Source: a virus. From it: 29,001 bases of DNA. This document shows positions 1,305 through 27,535 of the stretch, piece by piece. The notes beneath the pieces were generated by a model, which was not told the origin of the DNA, ran no database searches, and saw nothing but the letters and a program-made list of their open reading frames with translations. The stretch's first letter is position 1. Every line of letters begins with the position of its first letter. Location of the stretch: the IMG/VR virus record IMGVR_UViG_3300045738_001928, positions 1 to 29,001 of that record; one strand, 5' to 3'. Both the position numbers and the translations under genes were made by a program.

Positions 1305-2139
1305 TGACACCCTGGAGTGGTTTGCAAAGAGATACCGTGACAACTCGGTGCGAAAGTTCCGGGGTACGCTCGATGAGCAGGTACAGAATGTCGGCAAGCT
1401 TGAGCTGGCTGGTTACGATGTGCATGTGTGTATCAACACCGGCACAGAGCGTACTACCGGGGGCATCAACACATATCACGGCTGCTTTATTGATGTCGAT
1501 TACAAATCTGGGCATCACGCAAAACATGATTTTAGAATGCCACCACACTTCGCTGTTCAAACCGGAAACGGTTGGCATATCCACTGGTTACTTGAGCCTG
1601 GTGGGGATATCGCTGAGTGGCGATTAGTACAAAAGGCACTTGCTCGAAAATTTCAGACAGATGAGGCAGTAAATCTTGCAACACAACTGGTGCGACCAGC
1701 GGGGTTACGCTATAATAAAACCGCAACGAACCGACTTGGTGACGACTGTCATACGCGACTGCGTACCAACACAAAATCACCGGCAAGGCGCTATACCCTT
1801 GATGAACTCATTATTGGTTTTGGTCTCGTTCTAACGCCCAGACCTGTTTTTTTGGCGCGAGAGATCACAATGAAAAACCGGGGGTGTGCGGGTGCAAGAG
1901 CAGAGCAGTACTTAAATAAAATGGCGATTGCCGTCGAGGGTGATGCGGGCAGTATGCAGACGTATAAGGCCTGCAAGGTTGGATGCGACTTTGGCGTAAG
2001 CATGGATGTATTTTGGCCAGCCCTTTTGGGATGGAATTGCAGATGCTCACCACCATGGGACGAGCGCGAACTGCAGCAAAAGCTGGAGAGCGCATATAGA
2101 AATCAAACACGTAATTTTGGATGGAGGATGAGTGCATAA
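1255..2139 (+). CDS. Archaeo-eukaryotic-type (RepB-like) DNA primase
   Basis: This 294-residue protein should make primers for phage DNA replication. It carries the three AEP superfamily signatures in order: FIDVD with the metal-binding Asp pair at residues 80 and 82, GNGWHIHWLL with the catalytic His near 108, and RPAGLRYNKT at about 147-156. These resemble the RepB-type primase family. Residues from about 215 on (a YLNKM segment, the WN at 260-261, PPWDEREL near 267) look like the helical C-terminal region often found after such primases. The gene starts inside the end of the SF2 helicase gene and ends by overlapping the start of the SF3 helicase gene (TAATG), so the three form one translational unit. 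A split primase and SF3 helicase on separate chains contrasts with the fused P4 alpha-type protein. The family call is strong; activity is inferred. Confidence 0.85.
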   Translation: MQEDVFRRFCGLLHSDSDTLEWFAKRYRDNSVRKFRGTLDEQVQNVGKLELAGYDVHVCINTGTERTTGGINTYHGCFIDVDYKSGHHAKHDFRMPPHFAVQTGNGWHIHWLLEPGGDIAEWRLVQKALARKFQTDEAVNLATQLVRPAGLRYNKTATNRLGDDCHTRLRTNTKSPARRYTLDELIIGFGLVLTPRPVFLAREITMKNRGCAGARAEQYLNKMAIAVEGDAGSMQTYKACKVGCDFGVSMDVFWPALLGWNCRCSPPWDERELQQKLESAYRNQTRNFGWRMSA

Positions 2140-3593
2140 TGCAATGTACGGATTTGTCGAATGTTGATTTATTGGTTAAGGCACACGGGGAGCACATGCG
2201 ATTTGTGCCGGAATGGGGAAAGTGGCTCATCTGGGACGGGCATAGGTGGAGAACCGACATCACTGGTCAGATTATTCGCTGGATGTCTGTCATCGTGCGT
2301 AAGAAATATTATTGGTCGCAGAAGTGGTCACTCGAGCCGAACATCACCGACAACGAGCGGGAGAAAAGAAGAGCTGTTCATGAATGGTGGCGAAGAAGCG
2401 GCAGTACCGCAAAACTCCACGCAATCGAGCGACTAGCAAGGTCTTACGAAGGCATCCCTGTGGGGTATGAAGAGCTTGACCAAAAACCAGACCTGCTTAA
2501 TCTTAAAAATGGCACCTTCGATTTAAAAACAGGGGAACTGCGCGACCACTCGCCAGATGACCTGCTTACGAAAATGGCGCGAGTCGAGTTTGACCCTGAT
2601 GTTGTTGCGCCCAGGTGGGACAAGTTTATTGACGAGGTGCTCTGCGGAGACAAAGAGCTTATCGAGTTTGTGCGCCGTATTTTTGGGTACGCTCTTACCG
2701 GACACACTCACGAGCAATGCTACTTTTTTCTGCATGGGTTTGGGTGCAATGGTAAATCGACGCTCGTTAATGTCATTCATCATATGCTTGGCGATTATTC
2801 GCAGACCTGTGCGCCGAATTTATTTGTAACCAATGGCGGAGACGCACACCCAACGGGGGTGGCGCGGCTTTGTGGTGCGCGTTTTGTGGCCAGCACAGAG
2901 ATTGAGGGCAAGGACAAGCGACTGGCCGAACAGTTGTTGAAGCAGGTTACTGGTGGCGAGGCCATGGTGGCACGAAGAATGCGCGAGGACTTCTGGGAAT
3001 TTACGCCTACGCTAAAATTATTTCTAAGTGCAAATTCACTTCCGCATATTGAAGGGTCCGACCATGGGACATGGAGACGGATTCATAAAATCCCGTTCAA
3101 TCTAACAATTCCAGAAGAGGATAGGGATAGCGACCTTCTCTATATTTTAGAAACATACGAACTCAGCGGTATCTTTAACTGGATTTTCCAAGGGTGCCAA
3201 GACTGGTACAGGGCGGGACTCCAACCACCGGAATGCTCCAAGGAAGAGACTAAGAAGTGGCGCGGGATATGTGACCCACTCGAGGGGTATTTAGAAGAGG
3301 CCACCGCACACGGTAAGAGTATGCCTGAGCAGCAGAAAGACCAAATGTATGCCTGGCTCGATGTCGATAAGGATAACGAAAAGAAATCAATTCCAGTGAG
3401 TGACTTTCAGACAGGCTATCGGTCCTGGCTCAAAAGTAATGGGCTTGATGTCGTTGGGGGTCGCAAGATTTCCGGGGATATGGAAGCAAAGGGTTTTACC
3501 AAGGACCGCGTGACTGCAAGGTCGCAAACTCGCTACGCATGGTTAGGTATTGAAGCTATTTCCCTCGTTCCAAAAAAGGAGCCAGCTTTATGA
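2139..3593 (+). CDS. D5/P4-type SF3 replicative DNA helicase
   Basis: This 484-residue protein belongs to the phage/plasmid primase-helicase C-terminal family (D5_N plus SF3 AAA+ helicase). Residues 10-190 form the D5_N-like region (WGKWLIWDGHRW near 26-37, LLNLKNGTFDL near 119-129). The ATPase follows, with Walker A GCNGKST at 202-208, a Walker B strand RFVASTEIE near 248-256, the sensor strand LKLFLSANSLP near 292-302 and an arginine motif TWRRI near 311. A C-terminal extension from about 375 may be a small DNA-binding domain. SF3 enzymes form hexamers that unwind origin DNA. The start at 2139 overlaps the primase stop as TAATG and has GGAGG upstream; an in-frame ATG at 2121 would add six residues. 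The candidate origin repeats begin 78 bases after its stop. Confidence 0.93.
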   Translation: MQCTDLSNVDLLVKAHGEHMRFVPEWGKWLIWDGHRWRTDITGQIIRWMSVIVRKKYYWSQKWSLEPNITDNEREKRRAVHEWWRRSGSTAKLHAIERLARSYEGIPVGYEELDQKPDLLNLKNGTFDLKTGELRDHSPDDLLTKMARVEFDPDVVAPRWDKFIDEVLCGDKELIEFVRRIFGYALTGHTHEQCYFFLHGFGCNGKSTLVNVIHHMLGDYSQTCAPNLFVTNGGDAHPTGVARLCGARFVASTEIEGKDKRLAEQLLKQVTGGEAMVARRMREDFWEFTPTLKLFLSANSLPHIEGSDHGTWRRIHKIPFNLTIPEEDRDSDLLYILETYELSGIFNWIFQGCQDWYRAGLQPPECSKEETKKWRGICDPLEGYLEEATAHGKSMPEQQKDQMYAWLDVDKDNEKKSIPVSDFQTGYRSWLKSNGLDVVGGRKISGDMEAKGFTKDRVTARSQTRYAWLGIEAISLVPKKEPAL

Positions 3594-3606
3594 CTGTTAC
3601 GCTGCG

Positions 3607-3626
3607 CGTCAATAATCTGACGATTT
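3607..3626 (+). terminator. Possible weak terminator after the helicase operon
   Basis: A 5-bp perfect stem, CGTCA (3607-3611) with TGACG (3618-3622), encloses a 6-base loop and is followed by ATTTT. It lies just after the SF3 helicase stop, where transcription could end. The stem is short and the T run is poor, so this is only a candidate. Confidence 0.25.
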
Positions 3627-3670
3627 TCCAAACCCCCATTAAAACAAACCTTTTTCTTTTGGCGCGAACC

Positions 3671-3886
3671 TTGTCAGTTCAAAAGTAACAATCTGAACTG
3701 ACAATGACGTATATAATGATAACAGTATGTTATATTAATCTTGTCAGTTCAAATACACATATTACATATCACACAACCTGAGATTGAAATCACCCCTATA
3801 CAGAATTGGCCTTACCGATTTTTGAATATGAACTGACAAGATTCTGCTAAGTCGCTGGAATTGTTAATATGGACCTTGTCAGTTCA
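3671..3886. repeat. Iteron-like array of five TTGTCAGTTCA repeats; candidate replication origin or operator
   Basis: The gene-free stretch 3594-3906 holds five exact copies of TTGTCAGTTCA: plus strand at 3671-3681, 3741-3751 and 3876-3886, and minus strand at 3694-3704 and 3829-3839. Orientation alternates strictly. The pairs 3694/3741 and 3829/3876 have identical geometry, divergent with exactly 36 bases between them. Copies 3 and 4 share AATCTTGTCAGTTCA, and copies 2 and 5 share TTGTCAGTTCAGATT. The intervals are AT-rich, with a perfect TATAAT at 3712-3717. Placement straight after primase and helicase genes favours an origin bound by an initiator. The inverse complement contains CTGACA, close to a -35 box (on the minus strand CTGACA, 17 bases, TGTTAT at copy 3), so a cooperative repressor/promoter region is the main alternative. 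Confidence 0.8.
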
Positions 3887-3906
3887 GATTTTTTTGCCGG
3901 GAATAT

Positions 3907-4263
3907 GTGTTAGAATGGTTAATGACGCTCCCCAGAACCATAGATGCGGGGTGGGCGGTTTTCGGGATACAATATAGTGCTGGTCTCGAAATCGAAAATG
4001 AGAAAATGTTTGGTTATGTTGATTTTGACGAGCGCCTTGTCAGAATAAACACCGATGCTCCGCTACCGATGCTCCGAGAAACTCTTTTACACGAGTGTCT
4101 GCATATCATTTTTGCAGGCGTGGGGTTAGGAGAGGAAAAAATAGTAACGAACAACGAGAACCTGACCGAGCAGTCCACAAAGGGACTGATGTTGTTCTGT
4201 CGGCTAAATCCATTTTTGTTTAAGTGGCTTCTTTATGGTGAGGGGTTTTATGACTCCAAGTGA
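3907..4263 (+). CDS. Small HExxH putative zinc metallopeptidase-like protein
   Basis: A 118-residue protein with a clear zinc-peptidase helix, LLHECLHIIF, in which His62, Glu63 and His66 form the HExxH motif. The N-terminal half (LPRTIDAGWAVFGIQY, then GYVDFDERLVRINTD) is the compact beta region that precedes the helix in small phage ImmA/IrrE-like proteins. Those relatives either cleave repressors or have structural roles; the substrate here is unknown. The start used is GTG at 3907, preceded by GGGA; ATG at 3922 (MTLPRTID) is equally plausible and would fit the usual family start. It is the first gene to the right of the repeat array, 20 bases after its last copy, so its promoter probably lies within the array. 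Its end overlaps the nuclease gene. The motif is certain; enzymatic function is inference. Confidence 0.7.
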   Translation: MLEWLMTLPRTIDAGWAVFGIQYSAGLEIENEKMFGYVDFDERLVRINTDAPLPMLRETLLHECLHIIFAGVGLGEEKIVTNNENLTEQSTKGLMLFCRLNPFLFKWLLYGEGFYDSK

Positions 4264-16127: not shown

Positions 16128-18226
16128 TGGAAGAATCAGAAAACAAAGATTCTATTGGGGTTCTCGAGGGAACCTCGCCAGCAAAAAAATATTCTCCAAG
16201 CGATGAAGAGAAAAAGCTTTTAGGTAGACTCGATGCTCGGCTCAATGAGGCAACTCAGGATAGAACCACCATAGAGCAGGTATGGGAACTAGGCCGATGT
16301 TACTATAATGGCGATTATGTTTTGGCGAAAAACTCCATTACCGGTGATCTTGTTAAATTTCGCAAGGACAACACCGGCTCAGAAGAAAATATCATCAGGC
16401 CAATTGCTCGAGCACTGGTTGGAAAACTGGCTCGAGTAATCCCGAGCTGTACCGTTCTTCCAAGGACTGACGATCAGTCTGACCTTAAGGCCTCTCAGGC
16501 GAGTGAGAGTTTTCTCGATTATATCACCCGAAAAGAGAAGTTAAGACTGAAATATCTGAAGGCACAAAAGCAACTCGCTTGGGCCGGAACTGCTGTATTT
16601 CAAGTAGCCTGGGATAAAGATGCAGGCCAGATAGTGTCTTGGTGTGAGGAATGTGGATACAACGGAGAGCGCGAGGATGCCGAGCAAGAGTGCCCACAAT
16701 GCACCATGGCGATGATGTCCGAAGGAGTTGTTGGACAACCAGCACCCATCCTTAAGGAAATAAACGAGGGTGACCTTAGAGTTATACTGCACGATGTTGG
16801 CGACTTTCTTCCCGAGCCCGGAGTACGCGACCCAGAGAAAATGCGGTGGTGTGTGGTCAAAAAAGCCATCCCCGTGAGTGAGGTTCGTAGAAGATTTCCG
16901 CACAAGGCTGAGTATATTTCAGCCGATGATGGGATTTACGAGTCCCACTTTATGGAAGATGATATCGCCCCACTACACGAACACACATTCCTATATGAGT
17001 GGCACGAGGTTCCAACGGAGCAGTTCCCTGATGGTCGATTGATTTTCTCGACCGGCAGCATGATACTCTCAGAGCAGCCATCTCCATACCATGAGCTAGG
17101 CAGACTACCATTCTATTTTCATCGATTTGATCCAAATCCCAGCGACTTCTGGGGCCAACCCTTTATTGTATCGTGCTATAAGATTCAGGACGAGCGAAAC
17201 CATTTACTTTCGCAGGTTAAGAAAAATCGAGAACTCACCAACAACCCCAAACTAAAGGTTCCATTTGGTTCAGGCATAAGCGCCGACCGAATGAACACAA
17301 CAGCCGGGGAGATCATAAAATATAAGGCCCATGCGGGAGAGGTTCGCTACCTCGAAATACCGGGGTTCCCAAATTACGTTTATGCCGAGCTAGAGAGGTT
17401 GGAAGAGGCTGTTCGCAAGGCAGCGTCCGTAACTGAGCATGAGCTTGGAATGTCTGGAAAGAGTGGCGAATCAGGAAGATATGCCGCCATCCTTGACTCT
17501 CAGTCCCAAGAATCAATGACAGGTGTTATCGTAGAAAATATCGAGGAGTGGAAAGAGCTTCACCGAGCGATACTCGTTATGGCACAGACATATTACGATG
17601 AGAATCGAACTTGGTCTATTCTTGGAAAAGACAAGTTACATAACTTCACTTGGAAAGATGCTTCCCTTAAAAGCGGATGGGATATTGCGCTTAACGAGTC
17701 GGACTCTCTTTCAACTAATTCAGCAATCAGGCTCGGTCAGGCAGAACGACTCCTGCAGGCCGGAATCTTTACCGACCCAGCGACAGGCATGTTAGATATA
17801 AAAGCATTTTCGCAAATGGCTGGAATTCAGATGCCAGGTACTGCAGTTGATACAGATGGTTCTGAACGGGCCTATTTCTCTCAGGTCCCAGAAATTATTG
17901 CTTCTGGAGAAATGATTACGCCTAAACCATGGGATGATGCCAAAGTGGCAGCAGAGGAGCTTTTGGTTTGGCTAAGAGGATCAGGAAGGTCTGCCCCACA
18001 ACAGCTTGTCGAGCAGGTTGCACAGCTATGGATGGGATATGTTTCAGTGATGCAACCAACCCCTCTTGATGCCGACATAATGCCGAACGGCATGGGACAG
18101 CAGCAACAGCCACAACAAGGAGGTGCCGGCTTACCAAGTTCCGGAAGCTCGGCAGATCAGATGGTGCAGGAAGCAGACTCCGCAGGAGAGTCGATAGCTC
18201 GACCCGGGGCAATGCATGAGGGCTAG
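16127..18226 (+). CDS. Portal protein
   Basis: A 699-residue portal, the dodecameric ring through which DNA is packaged and ejected. The identification rests on the N-terminal core (CYYNGDYVLAKNSITGD, NIIRPIARALVGK, an AQKQLAWAGTAVFQVAWD helix), the FYFHRFDPNPSDFWGQPF and IVSCYKIQDERNHLLSQVKK segments of the stem region, and the later ASVTEHELGMSGKSGESG crown-like loop followed by a long helical section. These match podovirus-type portals. A CEEC...CPQC knuckle pair at residues 173-192 is inserted in the wing region and may bind zinc. The C-terminus is Gln/Gly/Ser-rich and probably disordered. AAGGA precedes the ATG, which overlaps the previous stop. Confidence 0.88.
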   Translation: MEESENKDSIGVLEGTSPAKKYSPSDEEKKLLGRLDARLNEATQDRTTIEQVWELGRCYYNGDYVLAKNSITGDLVKFRKDNTGSEENIIRPIARALVGKLARVIPSCTVLPRTDDQSDLKASQASESFLDYITRKEKLRLKYLKAQKQLAWAGTAVFQVAWDKDAGQIVSWCEECGYNGEREDAEQECPQCTMAMMSEGVVGQPAPILKEINEGDLRVILHDVGDFLPEPGVRDPEKMRWCVVKKAIPVSEVRRRFPHKAEYISADDGIYESHFMEDDIAPLHEHTFLYEWHEVPTEQFPDGRLIFSTGSMILSEQPSPYHELGRLPFYFHRFDPNPSDFWGQPFIVSCYKIQDERNHLLSQVKKNRELTNNPKLKVPFGSGISADRMNTTAGEIIKYKAHAGEVRYLEIPGFPNYVYAELERLEEAVRKAASVTEHELGMSGKSGESGRYAAILDSQSQESMTGVIVENIEEWKELHRAILVMAQTYYDENRTWSILGKDKLHNFTWKDASLKSGWDIALNESDSLSTNSAIRLGQAERLLQAGIFTDPATGMLDIKAFSQMAGIQMPGTAVDTDGSERAYFSQVPEIIASGEMITPKPWDDAKVAAEELLVWLRGSGRSAPQQLVEQVAQLWMGYVSVMQPTPLDADIMPNGMGQQQQPQQGGAGLPSSGSSADQMVQEADSAGESIARPGAMHEG

Positions 18227-25892: not shown

Positions 25893-26339
25893 ATGACAGT
25901 GAAAAATTACGAACTTCCCAATTTTGGCAATTTTATTGGAGCACAGGCTCGATTAGTTGGGCTTGCGTGTCTGCCAGACGTAAACACCGATAAACCTTGG
26001 ACGCTAAATTCCGTTAGCTTTTTCGCGAATAAGAAATCAGAACTTCCCGCTGACGCTGCATCTTCCGAGCCGACCACACTGCTTCTCGCTGCTGGATATT
26101 TCGACAATCAGGGCGAGTGGGCAGTCGATAATCAAATTGTTGTCTCTTATAATATCGAGATTGCACCGTCAGCATTCGTTTATGGAACCGCAACCGCGCC
26201 GGGTGGGTCGGTAAAGATGGACTTTGGAGACGCAAGTGGCCCATTCTTTCTGGCGCTCTTTGCCGATGCAAATGATGCCGATGACTGGCTGGCAGAACGA
26301 GAACTTACACTTTCAACCTACATTCAGAGGGATATCTAA
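25893..26339 (+). CDS. Putative tail appendage protein (148 aa)
   Basis: A 148-residue, mainly beta protein starting MTVKNYELPNFGNFIGAQA, Ala/Gly-rich with strands such as TTLLLAAGYFDNQGEWAVD, NQIVVSYNIEIAPSAFVYG and GPFFLALFADANDADDW. It looks like a compact beta-sandwich virion protein. AGGAG lies six bases before the ATG. It follows the paralogous module gene in the way the 199-residue protein follows the Ig-like gene at the other end of the operon, though the two do not look alike in sequence. Function inferred from position. Confidence 0.62.
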   Translation: MTVKNYELPNFGNFIGAQARLVGLACLPDVNTDKPWTLNSVSFFANKKSELPADAASSEPTTLLLAAGYFDNQGEWAVDNQIVVSYNIEIAPSAFVYGTATAPGGSVKMDFGDASGPFFLALFADANDADDWLAERELTLSTYIQRDI

Positions 26340-27406
26340 TGCTTCACCAAACAGGAGGAAGACCTCCACCACCACCATCACTACCACCACAAGGCGGCGG
26401 GGCAGGTTTTCAACAAACATCATTCGCACAAATGCAGAATAGAATTCCAATGGCAAGAAGGAAGGTACCAAGGTCAGGTATTCCGGGCGCAGGTATTCCG
26501 GGCGCAGGTATTCCGGGCGCAGGTGTTCCAGATGCGGGTATTCCATCCGGCCCCGACAACCTCCCACCAATTCCAGGAGGGGAAGGTGCGCCACCTCCTC
26601 CAACCAACCCACCACCACCTAGGTTTGAATTGCCTGAAGAGTTTCAAAACTTGGACCTTGACCAGGTTACAAAAATGAAGACAGACCTAGTCAGAAAGGT
26701 TCTACCTGAATCTGCAAAAACATACACGGGAGACCCCCCGCCCATGAGTGCCGAGGAATCAGAAGCACAATATGCAGGGAGTAATCCAGCAGCAGCAGAA
26801 GCAGCAGAGCGGATAATAAACGAACCACCACCAGGGGAATCCTCGCGGGGGGATGGCATCGACTACCAAGATGCCCTTGCAGGACTATTGGGGCGAAATA
26901 AGGAAGTATACGACAGGGACATGGAGAATGTACACGGCTTGAGGGCCAAGCTCGAGCGTGATGCCGCAAGCAATAATGCAATTGCAGGCTCTACTGGTGC
27001 CGGTGGATTCTTTGGTGCTCTATCATCAGGGGCAAATCAGCAGGCAGTAAATGCCATGGCCGATGCCTCGCAAAAACATGCTGCCAGAGAGATTGATATA
27101 CGTCTCGATGTTCTTGGCAAGCAAATTCAGCAGGCAGAAAATGCCAAGGACCGCGATGCAACCAAGGCGCTCAAAGATAAGTATGAGCAATACCTGCGCG
27201 ACAGAATGGCGCTTCAGTTCCCTCTGCCACCAGATGAAGATGAACTGGCGAAGCAGGAGAGGCAGAAGTATTTGGATAACATCGGTCCGGTGGACTCAGA
27301 AGGGCTGGCCACCAACGTAACCACACACAGCGGTGAGCCCGAGAAGAAGAGAGATTACCTGGCCCCCATAAAGAAGACGCTATCAGTGCTCAATCCATTC
27401 GATTAG
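26339..27406 (+). CDS. Pro-rich, elastin-like-repeat virion protein, possible ejection protein
   Basis: A 355-residue protein. The N-terminal 95 residues are extremely rich in Pro, Gly and Ala with a short run of IPGAG pentads (residues about 47-68) followed by GAPPPPTNPPPP. The rest is Ala/Asp/Glu/Lys-rich and helical (GLRAKLERDAASNNAIAG; HAAREIDIRLDVLGKQIQQA; then ATKALKDKYEQYLRDRMALQ). A Gly-rich loop lies near GSTGAGGFFGALSSG. This composition and the position suggest an internal or ejection protein, or a flexible tail part. The start overlaps the previous stop (TAATG) and lacks a strong ribosome binding site. The final bases of the gene are one arm of a 16-bp inverted repeat. Confidence 0.66.
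   Translation: MLHQTGGRPPPPPSLPPQGGGAGFQQTSFAQMQNRIPMARRKVPRSGIPGAGIPGAGIPGAGVPDAGIPSGPDNLPPIPGGEGAPPPPTNPPPPRFELPEEFQNLDLDQVTKMKTDLVRKVLPESAKTYTGDPPPMSAEESEAQYAGSNPAAAEAAERIINEPPPGESSRGDGIDYQDALAGLLGRNKEVYDRDMENVHGLRAKLERDAASNNAIAGSTGAGGFFGALSSGANQQAVNAMADASQKHAAREIDIRLDVLGKQIQQAENAKDRDATKALKDKYEQYLRDRMALQFPLPPDEDELAKQERQKYLDNIGPVDSEGLATNVTTHSGEPEKKRDYLAPIKKTLSVLNPFD
26477..26551 (+). repeat. 15-bp tandem repeat encoding IPGAG pentads
   Basis: Three identical units of GGTATTCCGGGCGCA run at 26477-26491, 26492-26506 and 26507-26521, followed by two diverged units (GGTGTTCCAGATGCG at 26522-26536 and GGTATTCCATCCGGC at 26537-26551). They encode G-I-P-G-A three times, then G-V-P-D-A and G-I-P-S-G. 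Exact units suggest recent slippage or expansion. Confidence 0.85.
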
Positions 27407-27535
27407 TGTCGTATCGGTGACGACTAAGGAGAAAAAATGCAGACATATAGAGACGGCAGTTATGAGCTATCAAGAAATCAACCAGGCCAGGTAGCCGGTC
27501 AAGTAGATGATCAAAATACATACGACACTAATCGA
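27399..27535. repeat. 16-bp perfect inverted repeat spanning a gene start
   Basis: TCGATTAGTGTCGTAT at 27399-27414 is the exact inverse of ATACGACACTAATCGA at 27520-27535, 105 bases apart. The left arm contains the stop of the 355-residue gene (27404-27406); the right arm lies 28 codons into the next gene. The Shine-Dalgarno site AAGGAG and the start at 27437 lie in the loop. In mRNA this could form a long-range stem affecting translation or RNase III processing. Confidence 0.8.

Follow-up and report, generated by a model that had tools for sequence, protein, structure and literature searches.

A fixed-spacing array of 11-bp sites 3' of a D5-family helicase gene as a probable phage replication origin

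We describe five exact copies of the 11-mer TTGTCAGTTCA that alternate in orientation (+ - + - +) within positions 3671-3886 of a viral contig of 29,001 bases (IMG/VR record IMGVR_UViG_3300045738_001928, referred to below as the window). This array is probably the DNA replication origin of the phage, or the initiator-binding part of it, and would belong to a type of origin located 3' of D5-family helicase genes. Its location, its conservation in a related phage, its low duplex stability and a comparison across 63 loci favor the origin that an earlier note on this DNA had proposed, whereas the other half of that proposal, a multi-site operator in which CTGACA doubles as a -35 box, was not supported.

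Sequence features of the array

Sites 1 to 5 were located by exact match at 3671-3681 (+), 3694-3704 (-), 3741-3751 (+), 3829-3839 (-) and 3876-3886 (+), just where the earlier note had placed five alternating 11-mers. In order, the gaps between them measure 12, 36, 77 and 36 bases and are 75, 78, 66 and 58% A+T, in agreement with the AT-rich intervals that it had described. Between convergent sites the gaps are 12 and 77 bases, the latter being the central gap at 3752-3828, and the two divergent pairs share a gap of 36 bp as claimed (pair A, sites 2-3, gap 3705-3740; pair B, sites 4-5, gap 3840-3875). The array reads most simply as a divergent pair with a 36-base gap that occurs twice, 135 bases apart, together with site 1. 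Conservation had also been thought to extend into the flanks, and over the ten sites of two phages the conserved word is indeed longer than 11 bases, being roughly AYC-TTGTCAGTTCA-RAT with single deviations.

When the remainder of the 29,001-base record was searched, a check that the earlier note had called for, no further copies of TTGTCAGTTCA were found at 0 or 1 mismatch. Allowing 2 mismatches adds six scattered matches, giving a total of 11 in the whole record against 9.8 expected by chance. The remaining clusters of repeated 9- to 11-mers in the window all lie in coding sequence. Elsewhere in the window a 15-bp tandem coding repeat at 26475-26544 (ORF 26339-27406) produces a collagen-like GIPGA run, and a perfect 16-bp inverted repeat, TCGATTAGTGTCGTAT, at 27399-27414 and 27520-27535 (105 bases apart), spans the junction of two structural-region ORFs. 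The first gene of the contig is truncated, as seen by comparison with a 515-aa homologue.

Duplex stability calculations place the least stable 60 bp of the window at 3710-3769, where they overlap the first divergent pair, and the homologous segment is also the least stable 60 bp of the relative described below (G001). At lengths of 40, 100, 150 and 300 bp the array region ranks among the top two in the window and comes second or third in G001. The 3705-3740 gap and the adjoining first part of the 77-bp gap form a candidate melting region. GC skew in the window tracks gene direction and gives no guide to an origin, and no DnaA boxes were found near the array, three matches being scattered through the window.

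Conservation of sites and spacing in a related phage

The close relative is PBAS01000039.1 (G001), a sequence of 33,121 bases from a Phycisphaeraceae MAG that is also present in IMG/VR and whose SF3 and primase-like proteins are 91% and 86% identical to those of the window. The earlier note had suggested looking for the repeat geometry in related phages, and in G001 the array, located at 16934-17149, keeps all five positions and every spacing. Alignment of the two phages over 375 bases contains no internal indel, and substitutions affect 2 of 55 site positions compared with 41 of 161 spacer positions (Fisher p = 1.2e-4), indicating that both the sites and their spacing are constrained. Sites 1, 3 and 5 are identical in the two phages; sites 2 and 4 each tolerate one substitution, which counts against the origin reading. 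The central gap is the least conserved part of the array (22 of 77 positions differ). Intergenic changes lack codon periodicity, unlike those in the following gene, where 28 of 42 fall at third positions, and the array is therefore not a hidden coding region.

In G001 exact sites are confined to the array, with a single 1-mismatch copy at a distant position in a coding region. G001 carries additional sequence, apparently a gene, that separates the helicase gene from the array, and we read in the window just the last codons of this extra gene. The array has thus stayed intact while its upstream neighbor changed, although the splitting of helicase and array in G001 also counts against the origin reading. 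A further point against it is that this particular array is known in two phages only, the window and G001. Scans of viral contigs found no exact divergent or convergent site pairs, a direct-repeat scan of these contigs returned only G001 and two unrelated coding repeats, and protein searches with the primase-like protein and with the product of the next gene matched G001 alone. The two coding repeats are in metagenome phage contigs (L079 61-131 and L081 11-81) in which the 11-mer occurs twice within a terminal 60-base coding repeat, with 141 bases identical between the contigs at this place. They probably derive from a single phage contig that was split at the repeat, each being one of its ends, and their match to the 11-mer is a chance one.

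The adjacent helicase gene and its context

The array begins 78 bases past the stop codon of the gene at 2121-3593 (+), which is the immediate 3' position seen in PICI-type origins. The encoded protein, our candidate initiator, matches D5_N (E = 1.4e-34) and DUF5906 (E = 6.7e-9) in Pfam, in keeping with the SF3 helicase that the earlier note had named among the replication genes. Its AlphaFold2 model, made with 32 sequences, has a mean pLDDT of 86.9 and contains a C-terminal winged-helix-like unit at residues ~423-475. Foldseek matches to this model include the ASFV PrimPol, the SaPI5 primase-helicase (7ola, TM by target 0.71) and vaccinia D5. The Pox_D5 family, which covers D5-like C-terminal regions, is matched by 15 of 32 homologues, whereas the window protein falls short of it. 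The protein has the architecture of a PICI-type initiator, a helicase resembling D5 and SaPI Rep that carries a DNA-binding domain at its C terminus.

A rightward run of genes for a DEAD helicase, a primase-like protein and the SF3 helicase ends at the array. The product of the middle gene (1255-2139, +) had been called a RepB-like primase, an assignment that Pfam did not uphold since no match lay above the cut-off (just PriCT_1, at E = 0.15); AEP-type motifs read by eye suggest that it is primase-like. To the left of the shared helicase genes, G001 has genes for an integrase, SSB and RecT, a weak match to YqaJ and a gene whose product carries two HTH domains of the Cro/CI type, and from this gene content the phage is probably temperate. 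A small hairpin (3607-3622, +), read from the window sequence and under the scan threshold, precedes the array. Its counterpart in G001 is terminator-like (GCGTCA-6-TGACGC-TTTTTC; scan, L001 7774-7791), and it is weaker in the window.

Repeats 3' of other D5-helicase genes

Were the array an origin that this helicase recognizes, repeats would be expected 3' of the gene also in relatives whose DNA is unrelated. Across the surveyed loci, clusters of exact 9-mers do peak at the 3' end of the D5 gene. A strict 11-mer cluster test missed paired tandem iterons and was therefore replaced with an inverted-repeat score (arms 30-160 bases apart, score of at least 12, 300 bases around and after the stop codon). 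With this test, inverted iteron-type repeats were present after the D5 stop in 18 of 37 loci compared with 15 of 1022 other windows (p = 4e-20). Because the idea had arisen from part of these 37 loci, we gathered a second set chosen by D5_N family alone in genomes from the phylum of G002, and here inverted repeats were found 3' of the D5 gene in 12 of 26 loci as opposed to 3 of 197 (p = 1.6e-10). After removal of near-identical copies, the 270 bp 3' of the gene contain an inverted repeat of the iteron type in 30 of 63 D5-helicase loci, with the window itself counted among the 30, versus 20 of 441 other gene ends (p = 5e-18), although the survey p-values overstate the evidence because the loci share ancestry.

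In the inverted-repeat test about half of the D5 loci gave no signal, which counts against the origin reading and tempers the broader result, and a few pairs with high scores, for example the one in L058, may be something other than iterons. Typical arms consist of tandem 9- to 10-mers, as in TTGGAACAGTCGGAACAGTT-43-AACTGTTCCAACTGTTCCAA of L031. At locus L044 (7591-7886), AAGTGTTCT occurs nine times in both orientations 240-540 bases past the D5 gene. These copies are missed by the 270-base test, so the iteron-bearing fraction is probably a lower bound.

An element, TTTCCGGTTAA / TTAACCGGAAA, was seen between the iteron arms of L002, L003, L010, L027, L030, L031, L039 and others, often forming both arms of a stem with CGCG-rich sequence inside, and it may be a second shared origin element. 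At 1 mismatch, TTCCGGTTAA has 11 matches 3' of D5 genes compared with 10 in all other sequence, an enrichment of ~30-fold. The TTTCCGGTTAA element is absent from the window.

In published work Cch2, a D5_N helicase, binds repeats downstream of its own gene through its C-terminal domain, and SaPI origins are located directly downstream of rep (PMC7581432). Our own data agree with this. Over 24 loci, the similarity of iteron arms rises with the identity of the C-terminal winged helix when the helicase core is controlled for (partial r = 0.24, permutation p = 0.0025), compared with 0.03 (p = 0.36) for core identity with the winged helix controlled. Given the small effect, an imperfect alignment of the domain and the removal of a handful of loci by judgement, we take the correlation as support and not as proof.

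Alternative explanations

The five sites could be a multi-site operator through which a phage or host regulator controls the gene that begins at 3922 and possibly also the last part of the operon upstream. Several equal sites across 216 bp would fit a cooperative repressor. By sequence reading, site 5 ends ~20 bases ahead of a possible extended -10 element, TGTTAGAAT (3908-3916, +), which was picked out by eye, is kept in G001 and was missed by the consensus scan. Nevertheless we find an operator unlikely, though least so for site 5. No sigma-70-like promoter was detected at the array in a scan of 3400-4200, and exact sites occur nowhere else in either phage, which speaks against CTGACA serving as a -35 box. 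Repeats at many promoters, the finding that the earlier note had said would point to an operator family, were searched for and not found: site copies with up to 1 mismatch are lacking elsewhere in the window, and the one in G001 is the distant coding copy mentioned above. The CI-like gene of G001 is >4 kb from the array and has no such site beside it. An operator also leaves unexplained the repeats 3' of D5 genes in other elements, although an origin may regulate transcription as well. We note that the gene at 3922 lacks an evident Shine-Dalgarno sequence and may start ~6 bases past the possible -10 element, and that its mRNA could for these reasons be leaderless; the minus-strand genes of the window, unlike this gene, have strong AAGGAGAA leaders.

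The inverted copies could instead act by pairing in a single strand, as a hairpin origin comparable to those proposed for pRN1 and phage BIP-1 or as an RNA element. The region folded as single-stranded DNA is more stable than its shuffles (z = -3.1), and a stem-loop 3' of a primase-helicase gene has been proposed as an origin (PMC4234260), but low folding energy is expected of any set of inverted copies. Both within-site substitutions in G001 are uncompensated, from which it appears that the site sequence and not the pairing has been kept, and Rfam contains no match for the region. We consider a structured strand very improbable, and we give equally little credence to a phage attachment site whose core would lie in the 77-bp gap, with the five sites as arm-type sites of the integrase. 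A tyrosine integrase is present in G001 and is probably encoded by the window phage as well, and the P4 attP also has arm repeats, of ~12 bp in mixed orientation. Yet int in G001 is ~7 kb away on the opposite strand, the would-be core is the poorly conserved central gap, no convincing match of the region to a host chromosome was found outside the phage contig, and the window contains no tRNA. A pac/cos site was set aside because the array lies ~10 kb from the TerL-like gene.

Comparison with known origins

The origin reading that we prefer has its closest parallels in phage satellites. The P4 crr lies directly 3' of the alpha (primase-helicase) gene behind an annotated terminator, much as the array lies 3' of its helicase gene, and it is made of a duplicated unit in which short iterons of either orientation flank a 35-bp gap. 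The window similarly has opposed sites around ~35-bp gaps, twice, 3' of a helicase gene, but this likeness in gap length is suggestive only since site polarity cannot be equated between the two. P4 alpha binds its origin repeats with a winged-helix domain (PMC4234260). P4 differs in having 8-bp, partly tandem iterons and a second element, ori1, 4.5 kb off, and in fusing primase and helicase in alpha where the window has separate proteins. The P4 iteron, GGTGAACAG, is not found in the array, whose own iteron (TTGTCAGTTCA / TGAACTGACAA) resembles it only in part.

PICI origins are immediately 3' of rep and comprise two iteron sets around an A+T-rich region (PMC6092414). The array shares this position and its helicase structurally matches the SaPI5 protein, but SaPIs and PICIs are satellites while the window is from a full tailed phage with five spaced, alternating single 11-bp sites. 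Sites 1-3 and 4-5 lie on either side of the 66% A+T central gap; however, their orientations alternate, so that they do not form tandem sets, and the gap richest in A+T falls inside the first group. The putative SCCmec Cch2 origin likewise pairs a D5_N-type helicase with repeats downstream of its gene, these being three short direct iterons (AAGTG) in contrast to the inverted arrangement here (PMC7581432). In pRN1 the non-coding DNA 3' of the primase-SF3-winged-helix gene is essential for replication (PMC4234260). This proposed origin and that of phage BIP-1 share with the array a non-coding location 3' of a replication-helicase gene, but each is a stem-loop of ~100 nt described as not iteron-like (PMC4234260), and in the window such pairing is not conserved.

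The earlier note had read the spacing as a hint of a cooperatively bound dimer; D5-type helicases are hexameric. We infer a mechanism in which the 2121-3593 helicase would bind the 11-bp sites through its C-terminal winged helix, form opposed hexamers on the divergent pairs and melt the A+T-rich DNA at about 3705-3770, and the neighboring primase-like protein would prime synthesis. With somewhat less than even confidence we suggest that the array is a P4/PICI-type origin of variant design, where two divergent pairs, each with a fixed 36-bp gap and each placing opposed helicase hexamers, stand in for the tandem iteron sets and one extra site is added, and that the origin layout so far regarded as a peculiarity of PICIs is common to phages and prophages with D5 helicases from several bacterial phyla.

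The 3'-of-helicase layout was already known from the phage satellites P4 and SaPIs, and it is widespread here among D5-helicase phage-like elements; its frequency among them is a more interesting result than the single array. The link between winged helix and iteron sequence offers a testable recognition code, and the small, fixed-spacing array of the window would be a convenient substrate for questions of D5/SF3 helicase loading. If the layout is as common 3' of D5-family genes as our survey suggests, origins could become predictable from sequence in uncultured phages.
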